This document shows, one piece after another, positions 10,246-33,509 of a stretch of DNA of 40,345 nt. The stretch covers positions 1 to 40,345 of the forward strand of contig JAJZLT010000033.1 of the NCBI GenBank assembly GCA_021803245.1, written 5' to 3'. This stretch comes from Microcaldota archaeon. GTDB lineage: Archaea > Micrarchaeota > Micrarchaeia > Micrarchaeales > CABMGC01. The position numbers were made by a program, and so were the translations under genes. Position 1 is the first letter of the stretch, and each line of letters begins with the position of its first letter. The notes beneath the pieces are model-generated. The model was not told the DNA's origin. It did not search any database and saw nothing but the letters and a program-made list of their open reading frames with translations.

Positions 10246-11771
10246 GTGTCAGTCACCTTTGAAAAGAGGCAGTAGGCGCTGCGCATCCTGTCGCCGGTTG
10301 CGCCGTAAAAGCCCGTATTGGCCAGATTAAGCAATGTGGTGCCGTATGCTTCATATAGTTTGCACGCAGGACTGCCATTAACCTCACTTGCCGGCACTAC
10401 TCCGAACACTCCTGCCTGCGCCACGCTATCCGACTGCACATAAGGAATTGTAGCCGTATAGACGAAGAAGCTTACATTGCCTGATTCAACTTCGTACACC
10501 GAAGAGCTTATGCCCTTTGTGTCTAAAACATTAATCTCTGCCTCGAGCATACTGTTGTCCATCAAGATGCTCCTTAATTTTTCTGCATTGCTGCCAAGAT
10601 AAAGCAGGAGCGGGTTATTCGCATTTATACTTGAATTGTAAAGAAAAATATACTCTCCGACAGGATAACTCCCATTGTAAGCAAGGCTGTAATTCATCCC
10701 GAAACCCGCTGTATTCACAAGACTGCCTGCGCTGGTGTTCATAAAGAAATAAGAAAGGTTGCTGTTCTGCGAGTTTGCAAGCAGCAGCGGAGAGATATAA
10801 AGGCCTGAAGAGTAGTAGAGCGTAAGCATGAAGTAGAATAGAGCAAAGAGAAGCGCAAGGGCAATGCCTATGCCGTAATAAGCCGGCGAAGGAAGCTTCG
10901 CCTTTCGTTCTGAGAATACGCCTATTCTGCCTATATTGAGCCCGAATCTGCCTGCTGCCAATATCATTACTATTATATCTATGTAAAAGAGCAGTATGCC
11001 TGCAAATGAGTGTACTGTCGATATGGCGGAGCCGGGGCCATAGTACAGCCAGACTATTGTTATAAAGAGCATTCTGAGAAAGTTGAGAAATATAAAAAGG
11101 ATTACACCTGCGGCTGTCCATATAATTTTGTCCCTCCGGGCTCCGGAATAGAACTTGGAGAGCGCAAGGAAGAAAAGCGCAATGGCTATGATCGCGCCGA
11201 GCCCTACACAGGCGTTTCCTATACCTATGTGGTTTGTACCAAGCGTAAGCGTTATAGGGTATGAATAAGCAAGCCTTTGGGTAAATGCACTTATTATGTG
11301 GTATATGGCCTGGGTATTCAGTATTGCGAAGCCTGTGTTAAGCCCAAAGAGCGGGGATAAAATGAGCGGCGAGGCGAATAAAGAGTAGACTAACAGCGGT
11401 ACAAATAGCTTTACGTTTGACTTTCCGAATAGTAGAAGAACAAAAGATAGCAGCAGAAGCGGATATAGGATGAAGTCTATACTATAGCTCAGGAAGTAAT
11501 ACGAGAGTTCAAATCTGAGGTACAATGTAAGCGCGATAAAGACGAGAAAGAAACCGATTCCGAGCGCTACGCTGCGCTTTGTTAGTTTTGGCTGCACACC
11601 ATCCTTAATTACAAAAAACGCCAGGACAGGGAGCATTAGCATGGGTATTACTACGTATGTAGATGGATCGGTGTCACTGATGTAAGGGTTAGTGGACAGC
11701 AGCGGGTTTACCATAGTGATTACTATTGCGACTAAGAAAATCACATACAGGAATCTTCTATTCGGCCGCAA
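10242..11771 (-). CDS. Archaeosortase/exosortase-family transpeptidase
   Basis: A 509-residue membrane protein with about ten helices in residues 1-325 and a C-terminal extracytoplasmic domain. The exosortase/archaeosortase catalytic triad is visible: C188 in GNACVGLGAII, R233 in LNFLRMLF and H254 in STVHSFAGILLF. Such enzymes cleave a short motif next to the C-terminal membrane anchor of surface proteins and link them to lipid. No clear cognate sorting signal (PGF- or PEF-like) was found in this window. The start is TTG 11769-11771, supported by GGTGAG five bases upstream; no in-frame ATG precedes the first helix. It is the first gene of a pair with Nudix-UDG (ATGA overlap) and is divergent from archease. 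Confidence 0.85.
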   Translation of the reverse strand: MRPNRRFLYVIFLVAIVITMVNPLLSTNPYISDTDPSTYVVIPMLMLPVLAFFVIKDGVQPKLTKRSVALGIGFFLVFIALTLYLRFELSYYFLSYSIDFILYPLLLLSFVLLLFGKSNVKLFVPLLVYSLFASPLILSPLFGLNTGFAILNTQAIYHIISAFTQRLAYSYPITLTLGTNHIGIGNACVGLGAIIAIALFFLALSKFYSGARRDKIIWTAAGVILFIFLNFLRMLFITIVWLYYGPGSAISTVHSFAGILLFYIDIIVMILAAGRFGLNIGRIGVFSERKAKLPSPAYYGIGIALALLFALFYFMLTLYYSSGLYISPLLLANSQNSNLSYFFMNTSAGSLVNTAGFGMNYSLAYNGSYPVGEYIFLYNSSINANNPLLLYLGSNAEKLRSILMDNSMLEAEINVLDTKGISSSVYEVESGNVSFFVYTATIPYVQSDSVAQAGVFGVVPASEVNGSPACKLYEAYGTTLLNLANTGFYGATGDRMRSAYCLFSKVTDT

Positions 11772-16469: not shown

Positions 16470-18044
16470 CTATCTCTCCAGTGCGAAGTGCGGATGCGAA
16501 ACCTTTACCTTAACTATCCTTTTTATGAGCATTTCATTTCCGCTGCCTATAAGCATGGCAGAATTCTCCCTAAGGTGCTTCTCTGCGTCATTTATCGCAC
16601 CAGAGCTTTCAGAATAGAGCGTAAAGATGGCCTCTCCCTTCTTAACATTCTCGCCTAGCTTTCTGTGCAGGATTATGGCAGCGCGCTTATCCAGCGGTGC
16701 GCCGAGTATCCGCGTTGCGGATGCAAGTGCGATATTGTTCATGCTGAGCACAGTCCCATTGCGGTCTGAAAGGATAGTGGCGCTGCGCCTTCCAAGCGGT
16801 ATCTCTTCCGGCCTTATCTTCGGATCGCCTCCCTGCCAGCTTATTATCTCATTCATCTTCTTTTCTGCCAGACCTCTTCTGAGTATGCTCATGGCAAGCT
16901 TCTTCCCCTGGCGCTTGCCTCCCAATTCCAAGATCATGCCAGCTATGCCGGTGGCTTTGTCAATTATGTCGGGCACGTTCTTAATGTTCCTTATCACAGA
17001 GAGTGCCTCGCGTGCCTCGGCGCCGGCTCCTATGGCGTAGCCTATCGGCTGGTCACCTCGCGTTATTGCTCCATGTACATTTATTCCCATGCGCCTGCCC
17101 AGATACATAAAGTCCCGAATGAGCAATTCTGCATCGGAAGGGCTCTTCTCCTTATCTCCAACAGGCACGTCAAGCACCATGTCTGTTGCACCGGCGGCCT
17201 TCTTCTTGGACATTATAGAGGGCAGCAGCAGCGGGTCTATTGAGAGCGGGTATTCGGCTCTTATGAAAATATCATCGGCAGGAGCAAGATGGACTGCGCC
17301 TCCCCAGACAATGCAGCCATTGATTCTGTTCACTATGCGCCTCATTTCATCAACGTTAAGGTTGACAGGCATAAAGGCCTCTGCCCTGTCTGCGGTTCCT
17401 GCAGCAGAGGTTATGGCCCTGGATGACGTTTTAGGTATCGTAAGTCCTGCCGCAGCCACTATGGGCACTGCCAGAAGCGTTGTCTTGTCACCCGGCGTGC
17501 CGCCTATCGAGTGTTTGTCAAATACTTTTTTTTTCTTCAATCCGAGTACCTCCCCGGTATTAACCATTGCCATAGACATATACTCTGCTTCCTCTATGGT
17601 CAGGCTATGCGCGTGCAGCCCGACCAGGAAAGCGGTTATCTCGTCTCTGCTGAGCCTCCTCTCTACCACATCCTTGACGATGCTGTAAAGGCTTTCATAA
17701 GGTAGTCGACGCCCCCTTAGCCTCTCCTTAATCACTGCAAGCGACTTGGGCTGTTCCATCTTCGCAAGCTTAACCTTGGCTCCATTCCTTAGCCTGAGCT
17801 CCCTGCTCAGCTCGCTTGTCAGGCCCATGCGGTTTCTCCCTGTGATGTTGGAGACGTCAACAATGGCTATGCTCTTTCTGCTGCTGCCTTTTGCATAAAT
17901 TTCGACCCTGTCTCCAGGCGCCAGCCCGTATGCTGTTGCGTCATGCCCATTGATAAGCACCACATTTGCGCCTGTATCTATTCCTACATTCCTTATTTCA
18001 AATTCCATCTCAACACTCTCATGCTGCGGCATAATGCCAGTCAT
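16470..18044 (-). CDS. AMP phosphorylase
   Basis: AMP phosphorylase converts AMP and phosphate to adenine and ribose 1,5-bisphosphate, the first step of the archaeal AMP degradation pathway. The 524-residue product is of the archaeal thymidine-phosphorylase-like type, with the extra N-terminal domain of about 90 residues (INGHDATAYGLAPGDRVEIY) absent from bacterial DeoA. The phosphate-binding signature FDKHSIGGTPGDKTT lies at about 175-189, with the TSSRAITSAAGTADRAE loop after it. Its ATG overlaps the RuBisCO stop by 4 nt (ATGA). M5 or M13 could also serve as start. With R15P isomerase and RuBisCO in the same operon the assignment is very firm. Confidence 0.95.
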   Translation of the reverse strand: MTGIMPQHESVEMEFEIRNVGIDTGANVVLINGHDATAYGLAPGDRVEIYAKGSSRKSIAIVDVSNITGRNRMGLTSELSRELRLRNGAKVKLAKMEQPKSLAVIKERLRGRRLPYESLYSIVKDVVERRLSRDEITAFLVGLHAHSLTIEEAEYMSMAMVNTGEVLGLKKKKVFDKHSIGGTPGDKTTLLAVPIVAAAGLTIPKTSSRAITSAAGTADRAEAFMPVNLNVDEMRRIVNRINGCIVWGGAVHLAPADDIFIRAEYPLSIDPLLLPSIMSKKKAAGATDMVLDVPVGDKEKSPSDAELLIRDFMYLGRRMGINVHGAITRGDQPIGYAIGAGAEAREALSVIRNIKNVPDIIDKATGIAGMILELGGKRQGKKLAMSILRRGLAEKKMNEIISWQGGDPKIRPEEIPLGRRSATILSDRNGTVLSMNNIALASATRILGAPLDKRAAIILHRKLGENVKKGEAIFTLYSESSGAINDAEKHLRENSAMLIGSGNEMLIKRIVKVKVSHPHFALER

Positions 18045-19351
18045 ATGGGCCTCTTCCCTCCCCAGTATTCCAGCGCAGCTTTGAGCGCAGGGCTGTGCCT
18101 AGCATATTCGGCAAGACTCTCGTGTTTCATCGCAGCAGATACTGCATCGCGCATTGCTGCGGCGCCGGCGCCCACTCCGTTTGGATGTCCGTCTATACCG
18201 CCGCCTGCCTGTATTGCAATCTCCGGCCCGAGAAGCTTCATCACATACGGCACCAGGCCCGGGTGAAGCCCTCCGGAAGACACCGGAACGACAGGCTTTA
18301 TGGCCTCCCATTTCTCCTTTAACACTCTTGCATGATCGAGGATGTCGCGATTCACGATTTCATCATCTATGTCTAGTACCTCCGTACGCGGAGAGGAAAG
18401 CTTTCCTACAACCGTGCCTATATGTATCTGGTCAACCCCGATAAGTCTTGCAAGCTTCGCTACGAGGAGCATGCTCATGCCGTGGTCGGCATTCCTAGTA
18501 AAAGCGGCATGGAAGGCCCTATGCGCATGGATAGCCAGGCCCAAGTCCTCGCATTCGTCTCTTATCGTCTGTGCAGCAGCCCAGCCTGCTGTTAGGATAT
18601 CCACCATAACATACTCGCCGCCAAGTTCCTTTACGAGCCTTGCCCTTCTTATCATCTCCTTCGTTTCAGCGGTAATGTTCGCAAGGTAGCTTTTTCTTTC
18701 TCCTGTCTCATTTTCGGCGTAGTCCCTATACTTAAACATGAGCTTCATGCGCGCGTCGAACGGATTGAAATCCTGGTTAGTAAGATTTTCATCATCCTTA
18801 AGAAGATCGACTCCTCCAAGCCATGCTTTTCTTGCGGCATCGGCATGCTCCTTCACGGTCATGCCAACTTTCGGCTTAGGCACATGAACAAGTATCGGCC
18901 TGCGTTTCTTCATCTTGAATATTTTTTCATATACGCCGTCAAGCCCAAACCCTGGTCCTCTGAATGAGCTAAGATAAGCTTTCGGCAAGGAGATGTCCTC
19001 AAGTCTCAGCGAGGCCACCGCTTTCATTCCAAATATGTTTCCAGCCACGGAGCTCATGAGCTGAGGGACAGAGCCTTTTTCGAAAAGTTCTATGGGATAA
19101 GCTACCTTCACATAACTGCCTTTGATGGAAAATGCCCTGGCCCGTATCTTTCTGATATGCTCCTTCAAGGTAGTCAGCTCCGCCCACGTACCGTTGCTGC
19201 TCTCGCTAGCAATCCTTCCCATTGCATTCTCCATGGACATGCCTTTTGCAGGATGCACCTTGAAGAGGCATACTAAGTCATTTTGCTTAGGCCTATGGCC
19301 AAGATCTACAAAATCCTTATACGGATCAATATTTGTTTTCAAAACATCCAC
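18041..19351 (-). CDS. rbcL: Ribulose-1,5-bisphosphate carboxylase large chain, archaeal form III type
   Basis: This RuBisCO fixes CO2 on ribulose 1,5-bisphosphate to give two 3-phosphoglycerates. Here it serves AMP salvage rather than a Calvin cycle. All key residues are seen (local number, spinach number): E50 (E60), N105 (N123), K159 (K175), K161 (K177), the carbamylated K185 (K201) in LLKDDEN with D187 and E188, H277 and R278 (H294/R295), H310 (H327), K317 (K334) in HIGTVVGK, and the S358/S359 region (S379). The GGGIDGHPNG phosphate loop is intact. The 436-residue length is typical of form III. It starts at GTG 19349-19351 inside the R15P isomerase gene (13-nt overlap). Precise subtype (III-a, III-b or III-like) needs a tree. 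Confidence 0.96.
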   Translation of the reverse strand: MDVLKTNIDPYKDFVDLGHRPKQNDLVCLFKVHPAKGMSMENAMGRIASESSNGTWAELTTLKEHIRKIRARAFSIKGSYVKVAYPIELFEKGSVPQLMSSVAGNIFGMKAVASLRLEDISLPKAYLSSFRGPGFGLDGVYEKIFKMKKRRPILVHVPKPKVGMTVKEHADAARKAWLGGVDLLKDDENLTNQDFNPFDARMKLMFKYRDYAENETGERKSYLANITAETKEMIRRARLVKELGGEYVMVDILTAGWAAAQTIRDECEDLGLAIHAHRAFHAAFTRNADHGMSMLLVAKLARLIGVDQIHIGTVVGKLSSPRTEVLDIDDEIVNRDILDHARVLKEKWEAIKPVVPVSSGGLHPGLVPYVMKLLGPEIAIQAGGGIDGHPNGVGAGAAAMRDAVSAAMKHESLAEYARHSPALKAALEYWGGKRPI

Positions 19352-20163
19352 CCATAATGCCCGTGAATCTCGCCCATCAGCGAGCCTGAATCTATCACTC
19401 CAAATTCGGTAATGAAGGCGTTTATGTTTTTCGGTTCCACTTCCTCGAAGACCTTATTTACTATATGTATATTTTTCCTATGCACATTCCAGACTTCAGT
19501 TCCAGATCTTGCCTCTATCTTCTCCTGTTTTCCATAGACTGTTTCAGGATCGAACTTCATTACCGATGAGGCTACGTATACCGGTATTCCAAAACTACGC
19601 GCAATCCCTGCAAAGAGGTTGCTCCCTATTTTATTTATCGCCGAGCCTGAGGAGGTTATGGCATCTGCGCCTATGAGCATCAGATCGGCTTCTTTTATTG
19701 CGTGCAAAGCTGCAGAATCAACATACATATTGACTTCTATTCCATGACTTGCAAGAGCAAGTGCAGTAAGCCTTCCCTGGAATGACGGCCTTGTCTCGGT
19801 AAGGTTTACGGTAAAGCGCCTGCCCTTCTTCCTGGAAAGAAGCATTATCGATTCGGCAGTTGAAGAATGGCAATGCGTATACACTGTGCTGCCATTCTGA
19901 ATGAGATTGCTTCCATATCCTGCTATCCTCGCATCCGCTTCACGTATCATCTCTGCCAGAGCACCCGGGTTCCCATATTTTGACAAGTATCGCATTGAAT
20001 TCCTGAGCATTGGCTCCGTAGGCCTCGCATTCATCAGCACCCGCTCGGCTTTTTTCTTATCGGCACATCCTGACCATGCAGCAATCGCCGCTTTGGCGAC
20101 GTTCTCTGCTCCCTGGATTTTCAAGGCTTTTATCATCTTAACTGTCTTGTAAAGATCATCCAT
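19339..20163 (-). CDS. Ribose-1,5-bisphosphate isomerase (eIF2B-like family)
   Basis: R15P isomerase turns ribose 1,5-bisphosphate into ribulose 1,5-bisphosphate, the RuBisCO substrate. The 274-residue protein belongs to the eIF-2B alpha/beta/delta and MtnA-like family. The catalytic Cys lies in YTHCHSST (C98) and the Asp in LIGADAI (D167), matching the Cys and Asp described for the Thermococcus enzyme. It is somewhat shorter at the N-terminus than typical members (about 320). It is the first gene of the overlapping operon R15P isomerase -> RuBisCO -> AMP phosphorylase. A TATA-like TTTTTAAGG on minus (about 20185-20193) lies about 26 bp before the ATG, which suggests a leaderless mRNA. Confidence 0.92.
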   Translation of the reverse strand: MDDLYKTVKMIKALKIQGAENVAKAAIAAWSGCADKKKAERVLMNARPTEPMLRNSMRYLSKYGNPGALAEMIREADARIAGYGSNLIQNGSTVYTHCHSSTAESIMLLSRKKGRRFTVNLTETRPSFQGRLTALALASHGIEVNMYVDSAALHAIKEADLMLIGADAITSSGSAINKIGSNLFAGIARSFGIPVYVASSVMKFDPETVYGKQEKIEARSGTEVWNVHRKNIHIVNKVFEEVEPKNINAFITEFGVIDSGSLMGEIHGHYGWMF

Positions 20164-22347: not shown

Positions 22348-23487
22348 ATGAAACTAGCTTTCCAGCCAATACCAAAGGAGTTTGTCTCAGGCACAGAATT
22401 TTTCGACTCAAAATCACCTCTTACAAAGGCGATTGAGAAAGTAAGCAAGTATGGTGCAGTCGTGGTGCTAAACGGGAAGGATTATTTCGGGATAGTTGAT
22501 GAGAGATCGATACAGGCAAAAAAGAACCTCGACATCGGAAAGCGGGAATCCATTTCGAAATTTGCGAAGAAGGCTCCTGTGCTCGACAGCTCAACCTCTA
22601 TAGACAAGGCGATAATAGATTTCTATGAGTCAGGTTCAAAGGCGTTAGCGTATCGCGAGGAAGGCAAGATAAAAGGCATAGTCCACAGGAATTCGCTGCT
22701 CAAGGCCATGCTTTCACTGCATCTCATCTCGGATTACAAGGTGCAGGAGATAATGTCGACTCCGATACTTGCCATAAATGAAGATGCGAACCTGAGCCAG
22801 GCGAAAGCTGCCATGGACAAGAATAGGGTTAAGCGTTTGATCGTAATGTCAAAGAAGGGTGCAAGCGGCATCCTGACGTATAAAGATATAATGAAGTATC
22901 TAATGCAGTCCCGCCGGAGGGTTATCACGCCCAGATCTTCTGTTCAGCCGAATATCAGTGTTGGAGAAGCTTCTAACAGGAATATCTATACAATAAGCAA
23001 GGATGCCAGCATAGACGATGCGATAAGGAGTTTTGTGGAGAACAAAGTTTCTTCGCTAATGGTGGTTGGAGATAGCAAGCCCATAGGTGTGGTTACCGTT
23101 AAGGATGTTTTCGAGGTCATTGCAAAAGAATCCTCAAGCAGGGAGAATAGAATAACCCTTTCTGGACTTGACAGCTATACCAAGGAGTACGAGGAAGATA
23201 TAAAGGAGAACCTTAGTGCGCTGATGGAGAAGCTAAACAGGTTCCATAAGATACAAACCACAGGCGTTTCAGCCAATGTAAAAAGGCTTAAAGACAAGAA
23301 CTACGAGGTAAAACTGCGGATCTTCCTTACCGAAAGAGGCGCAGTTTCGATATCTACTGCAGGCTACTCAATGGAAAGGGTTTTAAACGATGCCATAAAT
23401 AAAGCATACGGCATCATAAGGAACAGAAAAGAGATAATATACATGTCACATAAGCGTGAAAATGTGCCTGAAGAAGATGCAGAGTGA
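22348..23487 (+). CDS. Four-CBS-domain protein with C-terminal S30AE/HPF-like domain
   Basis: A 379-residue cytosolic protein. Residues about 10-262 contain four CBS motifs in two Bateman pairs: for example KAIEKVSKYGAVVVL..YFGIVDE, VQEIMSTPILAINEDANL..GILTYKDIMKYL and IYTISKDASIDDAIRSF..IGVVTVKDVFEVI. These usually bind adenosine nucleotides such as AMP/ATP. Residues about 268-379 resemble the ribosome hibernation factor fold: ITLSGLD, an amphipathic helix, TTGVSANVKRL, YEVKLRIFLTERGAVSISTAGYS and VLNDAINKAYGIIRNR, like the beta-alpha-beta-beta-beta-alpha of S30AE. An energy-sensing ribosome-binding protein is a sensible inference, and CBS proteins are reported as archaeal hibernation factors. 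It is just upstream of the pilin genes on the same strand. Confidence 0.8.
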   Translation: MKLAFQPIPKEFVSGTEFFDSKSPLTKAIEKVSKYGAVVVLNGKDYFGIVDERSIQAKKNLDIGKRESISKFAKKAPVLDSSTSIDKAIIDFYESGSKALAYREEGKIKGIVHRNSLLKAMLSLHLISDYKVQEIMSTPILAINEDANLSQAKAAMDKNRVKRLIVMSKKGASGILTYKDIMKYLMQSRRRVITPRSSVQPNISVGEASNRNIYTISKDASIDDAIRSFVENKVSSLMVVGDSKPIGVVTVKDVFEVIAKESSSRENRITLSGLDSYTKEYEEDIKENLSALMEKLNRFHKIQTTGVSANVKRLKDKNYEVKLRIFLTERGAVSISTAGYSMERVLNDAINKAYGIIRNRKEIIYMSHKRENVPEEDAE

Positions 23488-23497
23488 GTTATGGATG

Positions 23498-23971
23498 TAC
23501 GCTAAAAACAGCAACCGCAGGCTTCAGTCAAGTTTTGAATTGCTTATAACCATGTCTTTTGGCTTGGCAATACTTTTACCGCTTGTCATAATAGCGTTCA
23601 TACAGCTTTCGAATACCAATTCATCCCTTTCATCAATAGAGGCTCAGCAAGCAGCCAACAAATTATCTACAATAGCCACTGTAATAGGCGGAGAGGGCTA
23701 TCCTGCGAAGGAGCTTGTGCAGATAGAAGTGCCCCAGGGTGTGGCCGGCATAGAAATAGGTACTGCAGCAGATGGCATCGGGCATGAGATTATCTTCCTC
23801 GTAAGATCTCCTGTGGGGCTTAGCTATGTAACATCTTACACGCCACTGAATGTCAGCGGCAATCTGGGCGGCCTCTCCGCAGCAGGAACTTATCTCGTCA
23901 ATGTGACTTACCAGCAGAACTGCCCTTCAGACCTCAGCATACCGTGCGTATATATGCTGCCTGAGGTGTAA
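23498..23971 (+). CDS. Pilin-like protein with class III signal peptide
   Basis: A 157-residue protein starting MYAKNSNRRLQSSFELLI, followed by a long hydrophobic helix (TMSFGLAILLPLVIIAFIQL) and an extracellular domain. The LQSSFEL core matches archaeal type IV prepilin (class III) signals, with Glu at position 5 after a cleavage before Q. The exported part has NVSG/NVTY sequons and two Cys (NCPSDLSIPC) near the C-terminus, possibly disulfide-bonded. ATG 23480 would also be in frame and overlap the CBS gene; ATG 23498 gives the shorter leader and has AGTGAG about nine bases before it. It is likely a minor pilin. Confidence 0.75.
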   Translation, partial: YAKNSNRRLQSSFELLITMSFGLAILLPLVIIAFIQLSNTNSSLSSIEAQQAANKLSTIATVIGGEGYPAKELVQIEVPQGVAGIEIGTAADGIGHEIIFLVRSPVGLSYVTSYTPLNVSGNLGGLSAAGTYLVNVTYQQNCPSDLSIPCVYMLPEV

Positions 23972-23992
23972 TGCGCTGAAACAAGTGTTTGA

Positions 23993-26900
23993 ATGAAACT
24001 GCAGATCTCACTTGAATTCATGCTCGTCTTTTCATTCGTACTCGCGGTCTTCATCTTCATCTTCGCGGTCATAGCAAACCAACGGGTACTGGTAGTGAAC
24101 CAGCAGACCTATTCGCAGGTTCAGTCGATAGCGCAGGAGATAGCGCAGCAGATAGACAGTGCAGTCGCTGCAGGCAATGGATATCAGGCAAATATTCCCA
24201 TATACGGGATCAGCGGCATAACCATAGGCGGCATAAACGTCACAGACACTGGGATAGTTACTGTTAATGCATATCTGGCAAAGCAGAAAGTTACAGTGCT
24301 GGCATATAGCGACGCAAAGTCAGTGCTTGCGCCCAGCTCCGGCCTAAGCGGGAATTATGTGCAGATTTATAATTCATATGGGCTGATCTGCATAGACACG
24401 CCATGCACTGCAGCATTAGGCACGTCAGGCGATGTCCTGAACCTAAGCGTACAGAGCACAAATGTGGCAGAATTTGACGGCAGCTCGCAGATAATAATAC
24501 CACAGATAGCTGGCGTAAGCACGCCTGTCTTCACGCTCTCTGCCTGGGTATATTACAATGAATCAGATGCCGGCAAGCAAATCTACAACCTGCCCGGCCT
24601 GGAATCATGCTCTGTCGATACCGGTAACATGCTAAGCTGCGCATTCCCCGGCTCAGCAGTATACAACAGTCTGCAGTTCTACCCTGGTACATGGTATGAC
24701 CTGGTTTCCATAGACACTGGCACGGCCTGCTATGTAGACATAAGCGGTGTGGAAGAGAATTCTCCTGTTCCATGCCTCTTTGGTTCTTCCAACGGCATCG
24801 GAACTATAGGATCGCCTGGTTTCAATGGCCTTATCGCAAACATGCAGCTATATAGCACTACACTAAACGGCGCTTCACTTTATGCAGGCGGGATAGCGGC
24901 TGCACCTTCTTCAACGCAGTATCTGGCAGGCTGGTGGCCACTTTCCGGAGATTTCAATGATTACAGCATATATGATAACAATGGCTATGCCAATGGTGCG
25001 ATAGTCTTTCCTACAACAGGGGAAGTGACTGCCAGGGTAAGCACGATATATGGCGCTCCGGTGCAGAATGCAAAGGTCGCATTCTCAACCTCCATGGGAT
25101 ATTTAAATTCGAACCTTACGCCTTTCACTGTAGGCGCCACAGGATACACTGGCACAGTTTCAGCTTTCGTAAACCAGGGGGTGCAGAGCGGAATTGCCAA
25201 TGTGCGGGCGACCCTGTTCAACGGCCAGGAGGTATCACATCTTTTAACATGGCTTCCGATGAATCAGGGACAGGGCAGAGAGATGTTTAACTTTGCAAGC
25301 AACAGCACCCGCCAATTTACTTCGACTAATGCATCATGGAGCTATCCGGCTTACACGGCAACATTCAACGGAAAAGATAGCTACATCGCTGCACCTATAA
25401 GCTTGTCATCAAGCGTGCCATACACATTCGCATTATGGTTCAATGCCGCTAAGCTAAGCACATCCCAGTCTTCCTGCGCAACAGGTGCGACTATGTTTGA
25501 CAATGGCAACACTGCAGGCGTAGGCATCGGTGCGGGGGTATCCTATAACACCATCTATGTGCAGTATCCTGGCGGATGCGCGTCCATACCTTCGTCCATA
25601 GCCATTGAGCCTGGCCGTTGGTACGATCTTGCAATAGAATTTTCACCTTCCCCAAGCTACTACTCGATCAATGCTTTCATAAACGGCCAGCCTGCCGGCT
25701 CGGTCGCTGAAAGCTCGTTTTCGTCATCCAACCCTGCAAACTACGAGGATATAGGCAGGGCCGGATCGCTCAATTCATTCTTCAATGGATCAATAGCAAA
25801 TATGCAGGTGTATGTTTCTTCAACCCTGACTGAGGCACAGCTCGAGGATCTTTACAATATGGGCATCTCGGATCTTCCCGAAAAGGGCGCGCTTCTTGCA
25901 TGGTATCCTCTCGATGGCGACGCAGAAGACTATGGTCCTGAAGAATACAATGCGACAATCTACGGCGGTCTCCAGTTTTCGAAAACCAGCCTAACCCCAC
26001 TGAACCTCAATTCATCCTCAATACTCGCGGCTAACTTGTCTTCAGTAAATTATATACAGGTATCCAATGCATTATCAATCTCTCCGTCAAGCCAGATGAG
26101 CGCCTTCGCCTGGGTTACGCCAAATCTTAACTACCCTCCCGGAGCCATAACTGCCATACTGCAGAAAGAGGGCTCATACGGCATGTCAATAGGCCAATTT
26201 GGATCTAACGACATCCCCGGGGAATTCTCAGGTTATATAAGCTCTTCGGAAAGCTGCACATCCTCTCCTTACCCGCTCATTCCACATAAACTGTACTTTG
26301 TAGGCTTTACCTTCAACGGCTCCGTTGTGCAGAACTATGTCAACGGATACCCATACTGCTCCTACGAATATAACGGCATAATACCAACAACCAGCAGTGT
26401 CCTCGCATTCGGCGGGCCGTCAGACAGCGATAGCTATGCCAATGATACCCTCTCAAATGTGCAGTTATACGGAAAGGCGCTCTCCAGCAGCCAGGTCTAT
26501 ACCATATACAAAGGAGGCATAGCGGGCCTTCCCATAAGCAACGCGCAGCTTTCAGGCTGGTGGCTTCTCGACGGAAACACTACCGACTACAGCTCCGGAC
26601 ACGATAATGCAACTTCCTATGGTGCAGTATACACTGAAACATACGCATCTACTCCACAATTCGTCTATTCCTTAAGCAAGGGCGGCATGAACTTCAACGG
26701 CTACATGAGCTGCATTACATCGTATACTGCTTCGCCGCACCGTTTCCTGAATTCAAAATCCAACTTCACCATTGCTGCATGGGTCTATCCTTTTGAATAC
26801 GCTCCATCCGGCTCATCAGAGACTATATACTCTGAGGGCTCTCCCGGCTCAACGCTCTCCTTCTTCATCAATTCCAACGGCACATTGGCAGAGAGCGTCT

Positions 26901-27265
26901 ACAACTACCAGGCATCTACAAGGCACAACTATACTTCCACACTGCATGTGCCTCTAGACGCATGGTCTTTTGTGGCAGTCACGCTTTCAAGGGGAGGCGC
27001 AAATACTGGAATAGTGAATATGTACTTGAATACGCTGAACCAGACTGGCACAAGCCAGGACGAGTCAAACCCCAATACCAATTACATGGGAATAGGCTGC
27101 AATATCGGCTATTTGAAAGGCGAGCCGTACCTGAGCATGAATGGCTCGATAGCAGACCTGCAGACATATAACTACACGCTGAATAAGACTCAGCTGTACA
27201 GGATTTATCTCGGCGGGATTCCGCAATCGGAGTCGGCAAGCATGCCCCTGGGTGTGATAAGATGA
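23993..27265 (+). CDS. Giant LamG-domain adhesin with class III pilin signal
   Basis: A 1090-residue surface protein. It begins MKLQISLEFMLVFSFVLAVF, a classical class III prepilin signal, so it should be processed by a prepilin peptidase and enter a pilus. About 150 pilin-like residues come first, then LamG/concanavalin-like beta-sandwich domains at roughly 155-350, 455-665, 680-885 and 895-1080. An Ig/invasin-like domain (about 350-440: TGEVTARVSTIYGAPVQNAK) sits between the first two. Each LamG unit ends with a similar element (NGSIANMQVY..L..LY..G) and a GWWPLSGDFNDYS-like strand. Laminin-G domains bind glycans or proteins, so it is probably a tip adhesin. Its end overlaps the next gene by ATGA. 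Neighbours on both sides are pilin-like. Confidence 0.88.
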   Translation: MKLQISLEFMLVFSFVLAVFIFIFAVIANQRVLVVNQQTYSQVQSIAQEIAQQIDSAVAAGNGYQANIPIYGISGITIGGINVTDTGIVTVNAYLAKQKVTVLAYSDAKSVLAPSSGLSGNYVQIYNSYGLICIDTPCTAALGTSGDVLNLSVQSTNVAEFDGSSQIIIPQIAGVSTPVFTLSAWVYYNESDAGKQIYNLPGLESCSVDTGNMLSCAFPGSAVYNSLQFYPGTWYDLVSIDTGTACYVDISGVEENSPVPCLFGSSNGIGTIGSPGFNGLIANMQLYSTTLNGASLYAGGIAAAPSSTQYLAGWWPLSGDFNDYSIYDNNGYANGAIVFPTTGEVTARVSTIYGAPVQNAKVAFSTSMGYLNSNLTPFTVGATGYTGTVSAFVNQGVQSGIANVRATLFNGQEVSHLLTWLPMNQGQGREMFNFASNSTRQFTSTNASWSYPAYTATFNGKDSYIAAPISLSSSVPYTFALWFNAAKLSTSQSSCATGATMFDNGNTAGVGIGAGVSYNTIYVQYPGGCASIPSSIAIEPGRWYDLAIEFSPSPSYYSINAFINGQPAGSVAESSFSSSNPANYEDIGRAGSLNSFFNGSIANMQVYVSSTLTEAQLEDLYNMGISDLPEKGALLAWYPLDGDAEDYGPEEYNATIYGGLQFSKTSLTPLNLNSSSILAANLSSVNYIQVSNALSISPSSQMSAFAWVTPNLNYPPGAITAILQKEGSYGMSIGQFGSNDIPGEFSGYISSSESCTSSPYPLIPHKLYFVGFTFNGSVVQNYVNGYPYCSYEYNGIIPTTSSVLAFGGPSDSDSYANDTLSNVQLYGKALSSSQVYTIYKGGIAGLPISNAQLSGWWLLDGNTTDYSSGHDNATSYGAVYTETYASTPQFVYSLSKGGMNFNGYMSCITSYTASPHRFLNSKSNFTIAAWVYPFEYAPSGSSETIYSEGSPGSTLSFFINSNGTLAESVYNYQASTRHNYTSTLHVPLDAWSFVAVTLSRGGANTGIVNMYLNTLNQTGTSQDESNPNTNYMGIGCNIGYLKGEPYLSMNGSIADLQTYNYTLNKTQLYRIYLGGIPQSESASMPLGVIR

Positions 27266-27792
27266 AGGCCCAGTTCTGGTCATTCGACATAATCTTTGCG
27301 CTCTTCATATTTATAGTTGCAATACTGGTGCTGACGAGCGTGTGGCTGAGCATAAGCAACCAGTTCGCAATAGCCAACGGCGACAACACCGGCAGCATGC
27401 AGAACGAGCTTCAGCAGCTTGATTCAAAGCTCCTTTCCACAGGCAGTGCGAACTGGCAGGATCTTGTTCAGCCTACGAAGACTTCCACCTGGCAGAATGT
27501 AAGTGTAGGCCTCGGAGTAGGCCAGGGATCGGGGCTTTCATCAGGCAAGATTGAAACGCTCGAAGCTATGTCAAGTCACGACTATCAAGCGACAAAGCCG
27601 ATTCTCGGGATAGCTTACGATTATTACATATATATAGCGCTGAACGGCGGCCTTAACATAACAATAGGCAAGAGTCCGCAGGGCCAGTCTGCCACATCAG
27701 TCCAGGTCTCAAGCCTGCCCATAATAGTTGCCGGTCAGAAAGGGACGATGAAAACAGAGATCTGGACAAACACCACTTTCGGAATAGGGTAA
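27262..27792 (+). CDS. Pilin-like protein with class III signal peptide
   Basis: A 176-residue protein starting MKAQFWSFDIIFALFIFIVAIL. This is a class III-type signal in which Asp takes the usual Glu place, followed by one long hydrophobic helix. The rest is a secreted domain rich in Ser, Gly and Gln, with NVS, NIT and NTT sequons, and ends at TTFGIG. Similar AQFWS-type N-termini occur in archaeal minor pilins. It overlaps the LamG adhesin gene by 4 nt (ATGA), so the two are made in step. It is the last gene of the CBS/pilin operon; a hairpin follows the stop. Confidence 0.75.
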   Translation: MKAQFWSFDIIFALFIFIVAILVLTSVWLSISNQFAIANGDNTGSMQNELQQLDSKLLSTGSANWQDLVQPTKTSTWQNVSVGLGVGQGSGLSSGKIETLEAMSSHDYQATKPILGIAYDYYIYIALNGGLNITIGKSPQGQSATSVQVSSLPIIVAGQKGTMKTEIWTNTTFGIG

Positions 27793-27794
27793 GG

Positions 27795-27814
27795 AGCGGC
27801 GCAAATCCGCTTTA
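27795..27814 (+). terminator. Hairpin after the pilin operon
   Basis: AGCGG (27795-27799) and CCGCT (27807-27811) form a 5-bp stem with a 7-nt loop right after the pilin stop, followed by TTTAAATAAG. It may stop or slow transcription. The TTTAAATA part may also act as a TATA box for the small frame at 27842. Confidence 0.35.
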
Positions 27815-27841
27815 AATAAGAATTCTTCTATGCGCATGGAG

Positions 27842-28006
27842 ATGCGCAGTTATAGTTATGTGCACCTGGCTGCATTACAGAAAAGAGCTGCGGCAAGCAC
27901 TTTTTGGGAATTAACCATAGAAGAACTATCATATAATCCGGCATATTCATCCAAGATGCCCGGAAAGAAAATGGCCAGGCTTCAGTCAAAACAAAGCTCA
28001 AGATAA
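27842..28006 (+). CDS. Possible small leaderless protein, 54 residues
   Basis: A frame of 54 codons, MRSYSYVHLAALQKRAAAST at its start and RLQSKQSSR at its end, so basic and partly helical. In-frame ATGs also lie at 27830 and 27836. A TTTAAATA box at 27811-27818 is about 27 bp before ATG 27842, the spacing seen for other leaderless genes here. It fills the gap between the two convergent pilus operons. No known family; chance occurrence is possible. Confidence 0.35.
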   Translation: MRSYSYVHLAALQKRAAASTFWELTIEELSYNPAYSSKMPGKKMARLQSKQSSR

Positions 28007-28024
28007 CAGGAGCGGCATCTGCCT

Positions 28025-29020
28025 TTAGGTTCCAGGCGCGATGCCGTTGAAGATAGAGCTTATCACAAAGCCTGTAATAAAGAAGACAGTAAATCCTATC
28101 AGAAGGAAGATAGGCAGATATCTTATGCCTCTTATGATGGACCCGTTCATTATCACAGAAACAATGAAAGACCCTAAAGCAGAGATTATCAGTATCGCCA
28201 GTATCGCAAAATCATTGTATTCGCCTTGCGTAACCTTCGGAGGGCTGGGCTTGAGAAAGCTGACCCCTGTGGAGGGCAGACCTCCCGGATTCTGCTGCAA
28301 TATCCCTGCCCATACGTTGTCTGTTATAGCTATCATCTTGTCAGTCAGCGCATAAAGCGCAGGCGCTCCTATTATTGCAGCGAATGAGATGAAGATCGTG
28401 TACATAAAGAGCTGGCCGGATATCTCCTTCTGTATCGTCTGCTGGTTCCTTATGTCCTTTGCTATGTCATTCAGCATATCGGTCATACCGCCGCCGTACC
28501 TCATCGATTCGTTGATCATCCTTACCGTATGCCGCAGCTGCACGGACCTGTAATTGTTACCTAATGAGATTAGCGAATTCTGGAATGTCTCACCGGTATA
28601 AAGCTGCTTGCTTATCTGAACCACGTCATCAGAGAAGTACTTGAATTCAGGCCTCGTGGCAGAGACCATGGCCTTGTCTATCGCCATTCCGCTCCTTATA
28701 TTGGCAGAGGTAAGCTGCAGGTATTCCGGCAAAATGCCCTCTACAAAATTCTTCCTCTGCTCTATCTTCAGCTCAAGAATGCTGTAGATCGCGAATTCCA
28801 AGATTGCCGCAGAGAAGATGCCTGCCAGAACTGCAATGCCGGCGTTTAGCTTGATTAGTGCAAAGACAATCACTGCAACAGCTATAAATGTGGCTATGCC
28901 TCCAATCACTGCAATTCCGATCAGGTTGTTTACGGTGGTCTTGACGCCTGCCAGGTCAAGCTCCCTAGACAGGAACCTTACAAGGCTCCTCGAAACCAGT
29001 TTCTCAAAGCTTATCCTCAT
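28025..29020 (-). CDS. Type II/IV secretion membrane protein, T2SSF/TadC-like (second copy)
   Basis: A 331-residue polytopic protein with the T2SSF domain at about 93-215 (EYLQLTSANIRSGMAIDKAM and RYGGGMTDMLNDIAKDIRNQ). Helices lie at about 32-57, 61-83, 203-225, 270-292 and 300-324. Such proteins (TadC, ArlJ, PilC type) form the inner-membrane platform on which the ATPase assembles pilin. It is the last gene of the five-gene minus-strand operon and lies 10 nt after a second T2SSF protein; paired TadB/TadC-like subunits are usual in Tad-like systems. Confidence 0.88.
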   Translation of the reverse strand: MRISFEKLVSRSLVRFLSRELDLAGVKTTVNNLIGIAVIGGIATFIAVAVIVFALIKLNAGIAVLAGIFSAAILEFAIYSILELKIEQRKNFVEGILPEYLQLTSANIRSGMAIDKAMVSATRPEFKYFSDDVVQISKQLYTGETFQNSLISLGNNYRSVQLRHTVRMINESMRYGGGMTDMLNDIAKDIRNQQTIQKEISGQLFMYTIFISFAAIIGAPALYALTDKMIAITDNVWAGILQQNPGGLPSTGVSFLKPSPPKVTQGEYNDFAILAILIISALGSFIVSVIMNGSIIRGIRYLPIFLLIGFTVFFITGFVISSIFNGIAPGT

Positions 29021-29030
29021 AACATCAACA

Positions 29031-30137
29031 TTAGCCGGCGAAGACAGGGCGTGAAGTCCTCATTATATTAAGGAATATTATCTGCATGAATGCTATCCCT
29101 GCGAGTGCCGCAAGAAGCACTGTGAAATTTATCGTGAATATGCTTATGAAGGTGGTAAGTATTGTTGCGACTGCAAGTCCCATGCTGGGGAAGATCACCC
29201 CGAAAAGCATGTAAAACATGGCAAGCGCATTCAGCCTCTGCCCGTATCTCCTCAGCTCTATCACCCGCTCCTGGTTCACCTCCTCCACAACAGACTGTAT
29301 TGCATCAGTCACTTCCGCGCCTGATTTTATGCTCACGCTTGCCTGCAGCATTATCCGCTTGAAGGTCTTTGACCTGCTTTTTGAGCTGACCTCATCCATT
29401 GCCTGTTCTATAGGCATGCCCAGCTGAACCAGTTCGATGACCTTTCCGAATTCCCTGCTTGCAGCCCCATAGCCTGTGCTTACCGCGCTCATTGCGTTGA
29501 AGAGAGGCATGCCTGATCTTAAGCTTATCACCAGGTCCCTGCCTGCAAAGAGTATGTCCCTCTCCACGAGCTTGCCGTTCTGGCCGAGTCTGGCTTTAGG
29601 GTAATTGAGGAAGTTATTGAAAAGCATCTGGTAAAATGCTATAGAAAGCACAAGACCGAAGACCGCGAAGACAGGCCTGACATAATACAGTATAAATGCT
29701 ATGGCGAACGCGATCACTGCTGTCAGAACTATCGCCTTGATCATTGTGCCTTTTACAAAATCGTACGGGCTCTTCTTTATGCCCGCTTCTTTAAGGAGCA
29801 GCTCATAGTCTTTCTGCTTATTCACTATTTTCTCTATATATCCTGGCCTTTTTCCGGGTGGCATCTTTCCTTGCTTCTTAAGCTGGGCTGGCGGTTTTGC
29901 AGAAGCATTCTTTGGCATTGCTGCCTGCTGTATCGCGGTCTGTTTCTGCAGCGTAGCATTGAGTGGCGTTATGCCTGTTTTGCCGTAAGCCTGCTTTGGC
30001 TTGCGTCTGAAGAGCGAGAATCCCCTCTTCTTCACAGGTCCAGCGTTCTGTGTTGCCTGGTCTGCCTTCTGTGTTGCGGCTGTAGCCTGCGAACTACCCT
30101 GCTGCTTATCGCCATCTCCCATCAGATCAACTTGCAT
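29031..30137 (-). CDS. Type II/IV secretion membrane protein, T2SSF/TadB-like (first copy)
   Basis: A 368-residue membrane protein. The first 110 residues are cytosolic, low-complexity and rich in Gln, Ala, Lys and Pro (for example KQTAIQQAAMPKNASAKPPA). Two helices follow at about 132-180, then a T2SSF domain (about 190-310: GRDLVISLRSGMPLFNAMSA and SVSIKSGAEVTDAIQSVVEE), and two more helices near the C-terminus. It is partner of the T2SSF protein downstream. ATG 30135-30137 is used; M6 is an alternative. The long Lys/Gln-rich N-terminus is unusual for the family and could contact the ATPase or the unknown 208-residue protein encoded next to it. Confidence 0.87.
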   Translation of the reverse strand: MQVDLMGDGDKQQGSSQATAATQKADQATQNAGPVKKRGFSLFRRKPKQAYGKTGITPLNATLQKQTAIQQAAMPKNASAKPPAQLKKQGKMPPGKRPGYIEKIVNKQKDYELLLKEAGIKKSPYDFVKGTMIKAIVLTAVIAFAIAFILYYVRPVFAVFGLVLSIAFYQMLFNNFLNYPKARLGQNGKLVERDILFAGRDLVISLRSGMPLFNAMSAVSTGYGAASREFGKVIELVQLGMPIEQAMDEVSSKSRSKTFKRIMLQASVSIKSGAEVTDAIQSVVEEVNQERVIELRRYGQRLNALAMFYMLFGVIFPSMGLAVATILTTFISIFTINFTVLLAALAGIAFMQIIFLNIMRTSRPVFAG

Positions 30138-30155
30138 TAATCATTACAACAAAGC

Positions 30156-30782
30156 CTATATAACCTTTTTCGCCTTGAGTTTGCTAATTGCCTCGTCGAG
30201 GCGCTTGTTTCTTATTGCAATCAACTCTGCCTCGGCTTTGTCAACAGGCCTGCGTTCCTTCTTTGCATATTTCTTCAGCCCAAGCACTTCCTCCTTTATT
30301 ATTGCCTTATGCTCCCCTTCGAACACATTTTCGTCTAAACCGGACATTATCTGCTCGAGTTCTGAAATCTGGTCCTGGTAAGAAAGCCCGATCATGATAT
30401 TACTGTTGTCCTCCGCAGGCACGGCTTCTTCAACATGCTCTTTCCTATTCTTCTTCATGAGTCCCCCGAATATGCCATGCAGCTCCCCCTGCGCCTTCTC
30501 CATATCCCTGCGCATAAATGCGCCGCCTTTCTTGCTTACTCCTTCGTCGCCTGGCCCTGCAGCTTTGCGCGCATATGCTTCAGCATAACCCTCATGTTGC
30601 ACTGGCGGGAGGAGATCAGCGATTCTGCTTGCTTCTTTGTAGTCGTAACTCACTACAAGCGGCTTGCTGTTTATTATGTTGCTTATCTCTATGCTTGCAT
30701 CTGCATCCTTCTGATTGGCTCCTTCTATCTCCTCTATTATCTTCACTGCATTTTCATAGGTAAGTTCTTCTTCAGCCATCAT
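30156..30782 (-). CDS. Unknown cytosolic protein of the pilus operon
   Basis: A 208-residue soluble, highly charged protein, predicted mostly helical: LTYENAVKIIEEIEGANQ at the start, KAEAELIAIRNKRLDEAISK at the end. A short hydrophobic patch (VVSYDYKEASRIADLLPP) occurs near residue 50 and a disordered Gly/Lys-rich stretch around 80-100. No family recognised. It lies between the ATPase gene (ATGA overlap) and the first T2SSF gene, so it is probably a regulator or connector of the pilus motor. The start is ATG 30782 or the adjacent ATG 30779. Confidence 0.8.
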   Translation of the reverse strand: MMAEEELTYENAVKIIEEIEGANQKDADASIEISNIINSKPLVVSYDYKEASRIADLLPPVQHEGYAEAYARKAAGPGDEGVSKKGGAFMRRDMEKAQGELHGIFGGLMKKNRKEHVEEAVPAEDNSNIMIGLSYQDQISELEQIMSGLDENVFEGEHKAIIKEEVLGLKKYAKKERRPVDKAEAELIAIRNKRLDEAISKLKAKKVI

Positions 30783-32284
30783 TTCACCGCAGCGAGCAGA
30801 TCCGCAGAGTAAGGTGCATTGTCATGTACGATCTGCATCATCTTGTCTTGATGCCTGTAATAGTTGGCCACAACCAGTCCGCATGAAGTAACGTCAAAGA
30901 TTTTGTTCTTTATCATCCAGTCAATAACCTGGCCCTTCTCATCTACATCCTGGTCTATCTCACTTCTTGTATAACCTCCATAAAGCGAGATTATCTCCGC
31001 GAGCCTGGAGAGCTCGCTGACCTTCACGAATGTATCATTTCTAAGGTTCCACCTGCTTATCACATTCGCTTCTCCTGCTCCTGTTACTTCTGCAAACTCG
31101 AGCATACGCCTTATTCCAAGTCTCCTATGCCTGAAAAGAGAGACAACACCTCCTATGGAGTTCATCATTATCTTTGGTATTGCTATCGGAGGATTAGTCA
31201 TCCTTATCATAGTATCTTCTGCGTTGTCCGCGTGTACTGTGCCATATACTGCGTGGCCTGTGTGTATTGCCTCGAAGAGCGTTTCAGCATCGGCCTTCGT
31301 TCTAATTTCTCCAACAAGCATAATATCAGGCCTCTGCCTAAGTGCATTTATCATCAAATCATAAAGGCCTATGGCGCCCTTGCCTTCAGGATTTGCCTGC
31401 CTTGTTAGCATTGGCACCCACTGCATGAATTCAGGAAGCGTAAGCTCCCTAGTCTCCTCTACAGAGATAACCCTCCTGTCGGGTGGCATGAAAATGCTCA
31501 TCGCATTTAGAAAGCTGGTCTTTCCGCTAGCTGTACCACCTGATATCAGCATGCTTATCTCGTTCTGTATACAGAGCCAGAGCAGGCCGGCAAGGTCCTT
31601 CGAGATCGATTTGGCTGATACTAGCGCGGGCATGGTCCATGGATTCTTCGAGAATTTTCTTATGGTGAGTGTGTTGCCGCTCTGAGAAACCGGGAAGAGC
31701 GTTGCATTTACCCTGGAGCCGTCAGGAAGCTCCGCGTCCATAAGCGGCGAAAGATTGGTTATCTCCCTGCCCACTCTCCTGCCTATCTGCTCCGAGTCCT
31801 CGTAAATGGAATTTTCGTCGCCCATCATTATGTTTGTCTTGCACCATCCCCATTTCTTGTGGAAGACCCATACCGGAAACTTCGAGCCGTTTACTGCTAT
31901 CTCCTCAAGTTTGTCGTCAGCTACCGGAGCTTCGAGTTCGCCAAGTCCAAGCATCAGGTTTATAAGATATGCTATCAGCACGCTTTTGGTTTCAGGAGAC
32001 GTGCCAGGAAGGTACTTGTCTATTATGATATGGCAGGCTTCTGAGTACTTGACTGTCAGCTCGTCAAGATACTCCCGATCCTGCACCCTGGTTGGATCTA
32101 TCGGCACAAGATTCAGGAGCTCCGGCCTAAGGGAGAGCAAAAGCACCTTTGTGGCTTCTCCAAGCCCTGGGACAGTAACTTCGTAGAGCGGTACAAAACC
32201 TCCTTCATCCCCTATTCTTACGCTTATCTTGAGTCCGTGAGCCTCAAGTTCATAAGATTCATATTCATTTACTATACTTGTCAT
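30779..32284 (-). CDS. TadA/VirB11-like secretion ATPase
   Basis: A 501-residue hexameric-type ATPase that powers pilus assembly or retraction. It shows Walker A SGGTASGKTSF (about 248-258), the Asp box VISVEETREL, Walker B DIMLVGEIR (about 320-328) and the His box HTGHAVYGTVHADNAED. The N-terminal half holds the usual KYLP and EIAVNGSKFPVWVFHK elements. I take ATG 32282-32284 with GTGAGG four bases upstream; a TTG one codon earlier would also be open. The stop overlaps the next gene (ATGA). It lacks the tetra-Cys of bacterial PilB, as usual for archaeal and Tad forms. Confidence 0.93.
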   Translation of the reverse strand: MTSIVNEYESYELEAHGLKISVRIGDEGGFVPLYEVTVPGLGEATKVLLLSLRPELLNLVPIDPTRVQDREYLDELTVKYSEACHIIIDKYLPGTSPETKSVLIAYLINLMLGLGELEAPVADDKLEEIAVNGSKFPVWVFHKKWGWCKTNIMMGDENSIYEDSEQIGRRVGREITNLSPLMDAELPDGSRVNATLFPVSQSGNTLTIRKFSKNPWTMPALVSAKSISKDLAGLLWLCIQNEISMLISGGTASGKTSFLNAMSIFMPPDRRVISVEETRELTLPEFMQWVPMLTRQANPEGKGAIGLYDLMINALRQRPDIMLVGEIRTKADAETLFEAIHTGHAVYGTVHADNAEDTMIRMTNPPIAIPKIMMNSIGGVVSLFRHRRLGIRRMLEFAEVTGAGEANVISRWNLRNDTFVKVSELSRLAEIISLYGGYTRSEIDQDVDEKGQVIDWMIKNKIFDVTSCGLVVANYYRHQDKMMQIVHDNAPYSADLLAAVK

Positions 32285-32300
32285 CAAGCCTCACGAATCT

Positions 32301-33509
32301 CTATTTAGAAATATTATCTACGCCCTCCTTTACTCTATCTGTCTTGCTAAAGATGTCCTTTATCTTTTGCGATGTATCGGATGATTTTTTCTTTACTGAG
32401 CTTATCGCATCCTGTTTCTTGCCAAGGTCGCCTCCGGCGATGGAGCTTATCGCTCCAGCCTCCACTAGTATCTCATTCAGCGCTTTCTCCACAGCCTCCT
32501 TCTCCTTCGCTATCTCATCTATCTCTTTTTTCAAGTCGTTTATCTGTTCCATGAATTTGCCCAGTTCGCCAAACTTTGTGCGTTCCTGCCCGATAGTCTC
32601 ATTGATTTTATTAAATTCTTCAGCAGCGGCATTGTACATCGCAGTTATGCTGTTCTTGTTATCGGAAAGATCATGGGAGAGAGCCTGCTTCTCCTTTACA
32701 ATGGCATTCTTTATCTCGCCTGCCCTTTTGGTGTACTCTTGATAATCCTTCTGGTAGCCTGAGAAATATCTGCCCTGCTCCGAGACCAGCTCCTGGAGCT
32801 CCTTCCTCTGGCTCTTTATCATCTTTGCTACTTCGTATATCCTGTCTTTCTGCTCCCTGCTCTCGGCTTCGAATCTATTAAGTATATCCTTTACCTGTTT
32901 CTCAGAATCCGTTATTGCGCCAGTCATCTCCTGTATTATCTTTTTCGCCTCATTGTACTGCTGCTCTATCCCCACCGGAGTCGCATTTATCCTGTTGTCT
33001 AGAGTCTCGAGCTTGCCGTTCAGCTCCTCTTCCATCTTCTCTATCGCTTCCTTGCTCTGCCTGATCGAATTGAACTTCGACTTCACTTCTTCATCTACTC
33101 TTTTTATCCTCTCAAGGCCGTTTTTTACCTCCTTTCCGGTGCTCCTGTTAAATACTTGCTCTATATTGTTTATGGATTTGTTGAATTCCTGGAGCTTCCC
33201 CTCGAGCTGTTGCATTGCAGAGAGCTGACGCTTAGCGTCATTCTCAAGCGTGGTGCGCTGTACCTCTATCTTAGATTTTTCCGCGTTCATGTCCTCCTTG
33301 GACATCTGGCGCGGAGATACATACATCTTGCCGACTTTGTATGTAATCTTAATCATGTTGGCTTTTTCAAGTATGTTTGCCCAATCCTCTACAGTCTTCT
33401 CGCTTATTCCAAGGGCCATTGCAAGTGAAGCCCCACCTGTCTCTCCATGTTCATTAATATATTTTAAAAGGGCATCTATTCCAGTTACTATTTCACCAGA
33501 CGCCATCAT
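32301..33509 (-). CDS. Winged-helix plus long coiled-coil protein, first in the pilus operon
   Basis: A 402-residue soluble protein. Residues about 5-75 form a winged helix (VTGIDALLKYINEHGETGGASLAMALGISEKTVEDW..MIKITYKVGKMYVS). The remaining 320 residues are nearly all heptad-type coiled coil rich in Lys, Glu, Gln and Ile, ending in a KKKSSDTSQKIKDIF tail. It heads the operon of TadA and T2SSF genes, so a scaffold or assembly role is likelier than classical DNA regulation. A TATATA box at 33533-33538 (minus) lies about 26 bp before ATG 33507-33509, so I use that start; a TTG at 33524 is also open but would leave no room for the transcript start. Confidence 0.8.
   Translation of the reverse strand: MMASGEIVTGIDALLKYINEHGETGGASLAMALGISEKTVEDWANILEKANMIKITYKVGKMYVSPRQMSKEDMNAEKSKIEVQRTTLENDAKRQLSAMQQLEGKLQEFNKSINNIEQVFNRSTGKEVKNGLERIKRVDEEVKSKFNSIRQSKEAIEKMEEELNGKLETLDNRINATPVGIEQQYNEAKKIIQEMTGAITDSEKQVKDILNRFEAESREQKDRIYEVAKMIKSQRKELQELVSEQGRYFSGYQKDYQEYTKRAGEIKNAIVKEKQALSHDLSDNKNSITAMYNAAAEEFNKINETIGQERTKFGELGKFMEQINDLKKEIDEIAKEKEAVEKALNEILVEAGAISSIAGGDLGKKQDAISSVKKKSSDTSQKIKDIFSKTDRVKEGVDNISK

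Follow-up and report, generated by a model that had tools for sequence, protein, structure and literature searches.

The window analysed here, a 40,345-nucleotide stretch that makes up contig C13 of genome G000 (872,604 bases in 42 contigs, about 80% complete), contains two converging operons between positions 22,348 and 33,509. A scan of named genomes with an alignment of the ATPase encoded there found Candidatus Micrarchaeota; among them, MAS3.bin71 is a sister at 99% identity, and the cultured Ca. Micrarchaeum sp. A_DKE stands at 64%. This bears out the small-genome archaeon expected in the original prediction. All nine open reading frames listed at the outset exist and keep their coordinates, save for changed starts in m24 and cc31. 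They are given below, with a slash marking the predicted cut in each leader.

22348..23487, plus strand: c23, cytoplasmic CBS-domain protein of 379 aa that opens the subunit operon in the window's family (Pfam)
23495..23971, plus strand: m24, minor pilin-like protein (171-aa ORF), class III leader RRL/QSSFELL with E at +5
23993..27265, plus strand: LamG modular subunit of 1090 aa, class III leader KL/QISLEF with E at +5 (Pfam)
27262..27792, plus strand: m26, small subunit of 176 aa, leader KA/QFWSFD with D at +6 (alignments, AlphaFold2)
28025..29020, minus strand: f27, platform protein with a single T2SSF domain, TadB/TadC type (Pfam)
29031..30137, minus strand: f28, platform protein with a single T2SSF domain, TadB/TadC type (Pfam)
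30156..30782, minus strand: p29, accessory protein of 208 aa (alignments, AlphaFold2)
30779..32287, minus strand: assembly ATPase of 502 aa, archaeal GspE/FlaI/TadA (VirB11-type) superfamily
32301..33509, minus strand: cc31, cytoplasmic protein directly upstream of the ATPase (alignment)

The plus-strand operon opens with c23, in which Pfam finds three CBS stretches (4.4e-34). Its earlier label, CBS/HPF-like, holds for the first part and is weak for the second, as the S30AE-like C-terminus stays sub-threshold (Ribosomal_S30AE, 20.0 bits against a cut-off of 23.7). The gene precedes m24 and the LamG gene likewise in L035, L039, L041, L043, L049, L127, L151 and L166, and is a possible candidate regulator in the window's family. 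The 171-aa frame of m24 is present, with its start moved from 23456 to 23495, the most likely position by comparison with relatives and one just past the end of the CBS gene; the leader from this start reads MYAKNSNRRL/QSSFELL. The 1090-aa protein carries four Laminin_G_3 (ConA-like) stretches (1.1e-45) and a sub-threshold Big_1 Ig-like domain (Pfam). For m26, AlphaFold2 predicts a long N-terminal helix (residues 4-58), an alpha/beta head and four C-terminal strands (pLDDT 85.1, pTM 0.70), a predicted helix-plus-head arrangement that is the general shape of a pilin. The same model has no significant fold match in the PDB, which counts against a pilus reading; the matches to ribosomal S3 (TM about 0.25) were discarded as meaningless. 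Sequence searches of the PDB with m26, p29, one platform protein and the LamG protein returned nothing useful.

On the minus strand, the predicted Walker motifs and platform domains are confirmed: the ATPase matches T2SSE (PF00437, 2.7e-32), its Walker A sequence GGTASGKTS is invariant in the alignment, and the two T2SSF domains score 1.1e-12 and 1.2e-14. The platform genes f27 and f28 are the only T2SSF genes in the assembled genome, so that, within this assembled 80% or so, pilins have no other platform. In p29 a variable linker is followed by a conserved C-terminal helical domain with the motif LVLPxLSxxDQISELERIxEGL, and blocks from residue 131 onward are modelled at a mean pLDDT of 95-98; no relative was found by sequence in Pfam, NCBIfam or the PDB, and a fold search found nothing. 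The description of cc31 as a winged-helix/coiled-coil protein agrees with the alignment, which displays a conserved N-terminal winged-helix-like domain and a long coiled coil, and which makes a start at about 33506-33509 more likely than one at the TTG codon at 33524. Matches to cc31 in Pfam, NCBIfam and the PDB were generic coiled-coil ones only. In a subset of the order, seen in L060 (14314-16470, minus strand), L061, L173 and L178, a far more extended coiled coil brings cc31 to about 720 aa instead of about 430 aa.

Comparison with relatives revealed a larger subunit set than that of the window. In most relatives within the window's family the converging operon runs c23-m24-LamG-m26-X-Y, and in a second family LamG-m26-X-Y, with c23 and m24 missing at that place. 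X (about 725 aa) has one or two LamG domains, and a PQQ-type propeller in the L043 protein; for Y (655-1532 aa), the tested proteins each carry two to three LamG domains. In the window and its sister genome X and Y are missing from the pilus locus. Their loss from the window's lineage was considered and rejected, since both genes are intact, paired and next to a lipA-like gene in G001 (L252), the sister with 99% identity, as well as in G013 (L253). The G000 assembly, 80% complete, contains none of the 9-kb X-Y stretch, as expected of an assembly gap at this completeness.

The leaders of these subunits follow a consistent pattern when scored across relatives by the first acidic residue past the predicted cut. 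This residue lies at +5 in m24 (10/12) and LamG (24/25) and at +6 in m26 (37/39) and X (32/33), and Y lacks any acidic residue within the first 14 positions in all 35 of 35 sequences. The three proteins in the window that had been read as carrying class III signals therefore divide: m24 and LamG have the canonical E at +5, and m26 has D at +6. Two features count against a pilus reading or weaken it. The predicted cut in the window's m24 and LamG leaders is preceded by L rather than G or A, and the D at +6 is unusual, making prepilin peptidase processing of m26 and X uncertain. The tip pseudopilin of type II secretion, GspK, lacks the glutamate at +5. By this analogy Y, likewise without an acidic +5 residue, is the best tip candidate, ahead of the window's LamG protein; the original proposal that the latter forms the tip is not sustained, as it has the canonical E5 of subunits packed in the filament.

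As first noted, neither a prepilin peptidase nor a major pilin is present in the window, and both are found elsewhere in the same genome. A single Peptidase_A24 frame above cut-off lies at C22:4771-5076 and carries the FDTFNKRNVP and GAGD motifs; a Peptidase_A24 match is found in 39 of 40 relatives at E<=0.1, 36 of them above cut-off. The genome also encodes nine class III pilin heads of the Q-S-A-M-E-Y-L-x-T-Y-G-W type ('QSAMEYL-TYGWA'), and the 40 relatives have 9-55 class III heads each at a loose threshold. Among seven G000 pilins scanned, Laminin_G_3 is above cut-off in one, DUF2341 is above cut-off in one and just below in another, Big_1 is just below in one, and three are without any domain match. 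Some relatives have arrays of pilins of about 300 residues, with a single LamG domain each. G009, a genome of about 0.8 Mb with 55 class III heads, holds arrays of 290-315-aa LamG pilins with a constant head and a variable lectin part (L217 and L218, contigs C32 and C27). In L219 (G042:C1:580000-598000), a 1974-base unit is repeated head to tail at 3632-11467, with three compared copies 99.4-100% identical; the unit consists of a LamG-type pilin gene and two ORFs that by eye are nucleotidyltransferase-like and HEPN-like, and looks like a recent amplification of pilin genes tied to a toxin-antitoxin-like pair.

The hallmarks of an archaeal type IV pilus are thus present together: a T2SSE/VirB11 ATPase, T2SSF platforms, a genomic prepilin peptidase and class III subunits linked to the motor. 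We consider it likely, judging from genes and their arrangement, that both operons serve one such pilus, the minus-strand operon supplying its motor and the plus-strand operon its minor subunits. The ATPase falls below the cut-off of every NCBIfam subfamily that it matched, including TadA (TIGR03819, 171.6 bits against 373.15), the archaellum FlaI family (NF058587, 249.9 against 550) and the Sulfolobus bindosome BasE family (NF053672, 131 against 1000), and membership in the Tad, archaellum or bindosome systems was rejected on these scores. Of the original TadA-like label, the homology of the ATPase and the TadB/TadC-type platforms remain, and membership in the TadA family does not. With the bacterial Tad pilus the locus has a homologous ATPase and two separate single-T2SSF platform proteins in common, and TadZ, Flp pilin and secretin partners were not seen in the window. 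The archaellum motor (FlaI/FlaJ) also has a homologous ATPase, yet the score here is far below the FlaI cut-off, and no FlaH, FlaF, FlaG or archaellin was recognised by Pfam among the window proteins scanned. The euryarchaeal PilB3/PilB4-type pili (PMC4858521) are similar in ATPase superfamily, in having two TadC-type genes and class III subunits, and in major pilins encoded in trans; they differ in that none of the components described for them can be recognised as cc31 or p29, and in that the locus here has a fixed convergent subunit operon with LamG and propeller domains.

One possible alternative is that the machine is a pseudopilus similar to type II secretion, in which a short internal pilus exports or releases LamG proteins and no long surface fibre is made. 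Sequence does not separate type II secretion motors from those of type IV pili, and the best solved relative of the ATPase in a PDB search, archaeal GspE 2oap (268.8 bits, ahead of FlaI at 232.8 and CpaF at 197.8), carries a type II secretion annotation. Furthermore, the five leader-bearing subunits, one of them without E5, resemble the pseudopilin set generally known for type II secretion. The large lectin domains are nevertheless fused to the subunits rather than being separate cargo, the many small pilins encoded in trans suit a shaft, and archaea are without the outer membrane that type II secretion crosses, all of which makes this explanation unlikely.

That the two operons belong to one type IV pilus is argued for by their conserved linkage, which was followed in ATPase ortholog neighbourhoods from 40 relatives in two families, 41 Micrarchaeales-level loci with the window. 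In these, the gene immediately upstream of the ATPase is cc31 in 40/41 loci and the one immediately downstream is p29 in 35/39 testable loci; the two platform genes come after, without a change of strand, in 36/38. The near-constant position of cc31 and p29 on either side of the ATPase at order level makes both of them probable partners of the motor in the cytoplasm. Past the platform genes, subunit genes occur within 7 kb in 26/34 testable loci, in each of the 26 wholly on the opposite, converging strand. A second set of 80 named ATPase loci, overlapping the first, gave 59/70 for cc31, 53/75 for p29, 61/67 for the platform pair and 37/53 for the subunit genes (34 convergent), the lower values in distant loci being partly a loss of sensitivity, as the profiles derive from the first set. 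The five-gene order with converging subunit genes was found again in dozens of genera and persists at about 50% ATPase identity (L193, L201). The check on linkage in relatives that the original prediction had called for thus supports a single machine, and the arrangement is more than chance. Upstream of cc31 in many relatives (for example L043, 15741-18568), and absent from the window, are three ORFs of the TrkA_N ion-channel-regulator type (two tested) and a Peptidase_M50-like membrane protein of about 231 aa.

A second alternative is that LamG, m24, m26, X and Y form a membrane-anchored coat or stalk that the neighbouring motor does not build, with the locus shared through co-regulation only. 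This would account for the D6 leaders, which are not standard class III, for the relocation of X-Y in the window's clade, and for the loci in which the two halves are apart, about a quarter of those testable at order level, a proportion that counts against the pilus reading. It sits poorly with the convergent linkage, extending as it does to distant families, and with the E5 leaders of LamG and m24. It is also opposed by co-retention at phylum scale: in a sample of 295 genomes, 96 of them good genomes, the ATPase ortholog is present in 262/295 (93/96 good genomes) and m26 in 220/295 (86/96). A few genomes retain m26 at a distant position, as G048 does (m26 at C1:808715, ATPase at C1:478082), which points to a functional tie rather than passive synteny. 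We regard a separate coat or stalk as quite unlikely. We read the locus as a real, well-conserved and probably complete type IV pilus of Micrarchaeota whose modular subunits bear lectin domains, a reading that draws on gene order and convergence, the ATPase and T2SSF domains, the sole platform pair, the A24 peptidase and the pilin heads, and equally on the leader pattern (E5/E5/D6/D6/none), the predicted shape of m26, and the LamG domains on X, Y and the pilins in trans.

In the mechanism that we propose, the A24 peptidase would trim the subunit leaders, and a hexameric ATPase would drive the two platform proteins, pushing subunits out of the membrane, with cc31 and p29 as putative dedicated cytoplasmic partners of the ATPase and platform. 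Y, without an acidic +5 residue, may cap the tip; X and m26 (D6) with LamG and m24 (E5) may form a tip-proximal complex that starts the filament, and the QSAMEYL pilins may make up the shaft. In the window's family c23 may couple expression or assembly to nucleotide levels. Whether at the tip or along the shaft, the LamG modules may attach to glycans or glycoproteins, either on host cells or in biofilm, glycan binding by LamG_3 being a putative property expected at the level of the family. A role in host attachment is plausible, and the pilus is a good candidate for the fibre by which these tiny, probably host-dependent archaea hold their hosts. A pilus for DNA uptake or retractile motility, with adhesion secondary, is very unlikely: type IV pilus roles elsewhere include DNA uptake and twitching, and DNA exchange by type IV pili was speculated on for the ARMAN-2-related Mia14 (PMC5498576), but the subunits here bear lectin and propeller domains and no recognised DNA-binding ones, and, leaving aside the solitary second ATPase on contig C2 of G000, no dedicated retraction ATPase was identified. 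Returning to the adhesive pilus, one could tentatively go further and regard the lectins as present at the tip and also as the filament itself, with one motor polymerising interchangeable LamG-headed pilins into a variable, host-matching adhesive coat akin to antigenic variation. This possibility is suggested by the nine heads of the window's genome (one with LamG) and by the up to 55 in a 0.8-Mb relative, many LamG-headed and in near-identical tandem arrays.

The machine type is that of known archaeal type IV pili, and the broad idea is not new. Mia14, an archaeon of the Micrarchaeota type, was described in 2017 with two type IV pilus systems, one FlaK-like peptidase and a LamG expansion, some LamG genes being linked to pilus loci and key components being common to many Micrarchaea (PMC5498576). 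The main text of that study is without the subunit set, the leader pattern, the cc31 and p29 partners, or LamG fused to pilins encoded in trans. As the fixed subunit set, the leader pattern, the cc31 and p29 families and LamG on pilins in trans are also unreported in the open-licence main texts searched, these features may be new. In bacteria, Streptococcus sanguinis has the modular minor pilins PilC (lectin) and PilB (vWA), with a proposed tip adhesion complex (PMC9934059, PMC8179133). The ConA-like lectin module on a pilin leader, as in PilC, is likewise found in the window's 1090-aa protein, in X and Y and in pilins encoded in trans; unlike the bacterial pili, the system here combines several large subunits that each bear multiple LamG domains with LamG pilins by the dozen. 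In the episymbiont Nanosynbacter lyticus TM7x, thin T4P-2 pili contribute to host binding, and the propeller-bearing PilX2 is an adhesin candidate (PMC12206443). The likeness lies in an ultra-small, host-dependent cell with a propeller-bearing minor pilin; TM7x is bacterial and its pilus was shown experimentally, whereas the Micrarchaeota system is archaeal and predicted from genes.

The locus bears on how DPANN archaea recognise and hold their hosts. Cryo-electron tomography of a co-culture of Ca. Micrarchaeum harzensis A_DKE revealed fine filaments at attachment sites, which the authors linked to the host; pili and LamG go unmentioned there (PMC8975820). The A_DKE chromosome has the same locus with LamG subunits (L163, NZ_CP060530.1, about 411-424 kb), which allows a direct test, in culture, of what makes these filaments. 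Other work has described DPANN pilus loci in which no pilins were annotated (PMC9563170; for nanoarchaea, PMC4858521), and the leader pattern and subunit families offer a way to find pilins in such loci.

Three further observations concern neighbouring or related genes. The solitary second ATPase of G000, also VirB11-type, lies at 4204-5535 on the minus strand of L215 (contig C2) with no platform gene nearby; it has about 27% identity to the pilus ATPase and counterparts in relatives. Within the window, adjacent minus-strand genes at 16470-20163 resemble, by eye, those for AMP phosphorylase, a RuBisCO-like large subunit and ribose-1,5-bisphosphate isomerase, which together make up the archaeal AMP pathway. 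At 10242-11771, also on the minus strand, lies a multi-pass membrane protein that by eye is exosortase/archaeosortase-like, with a C-terminal extension.
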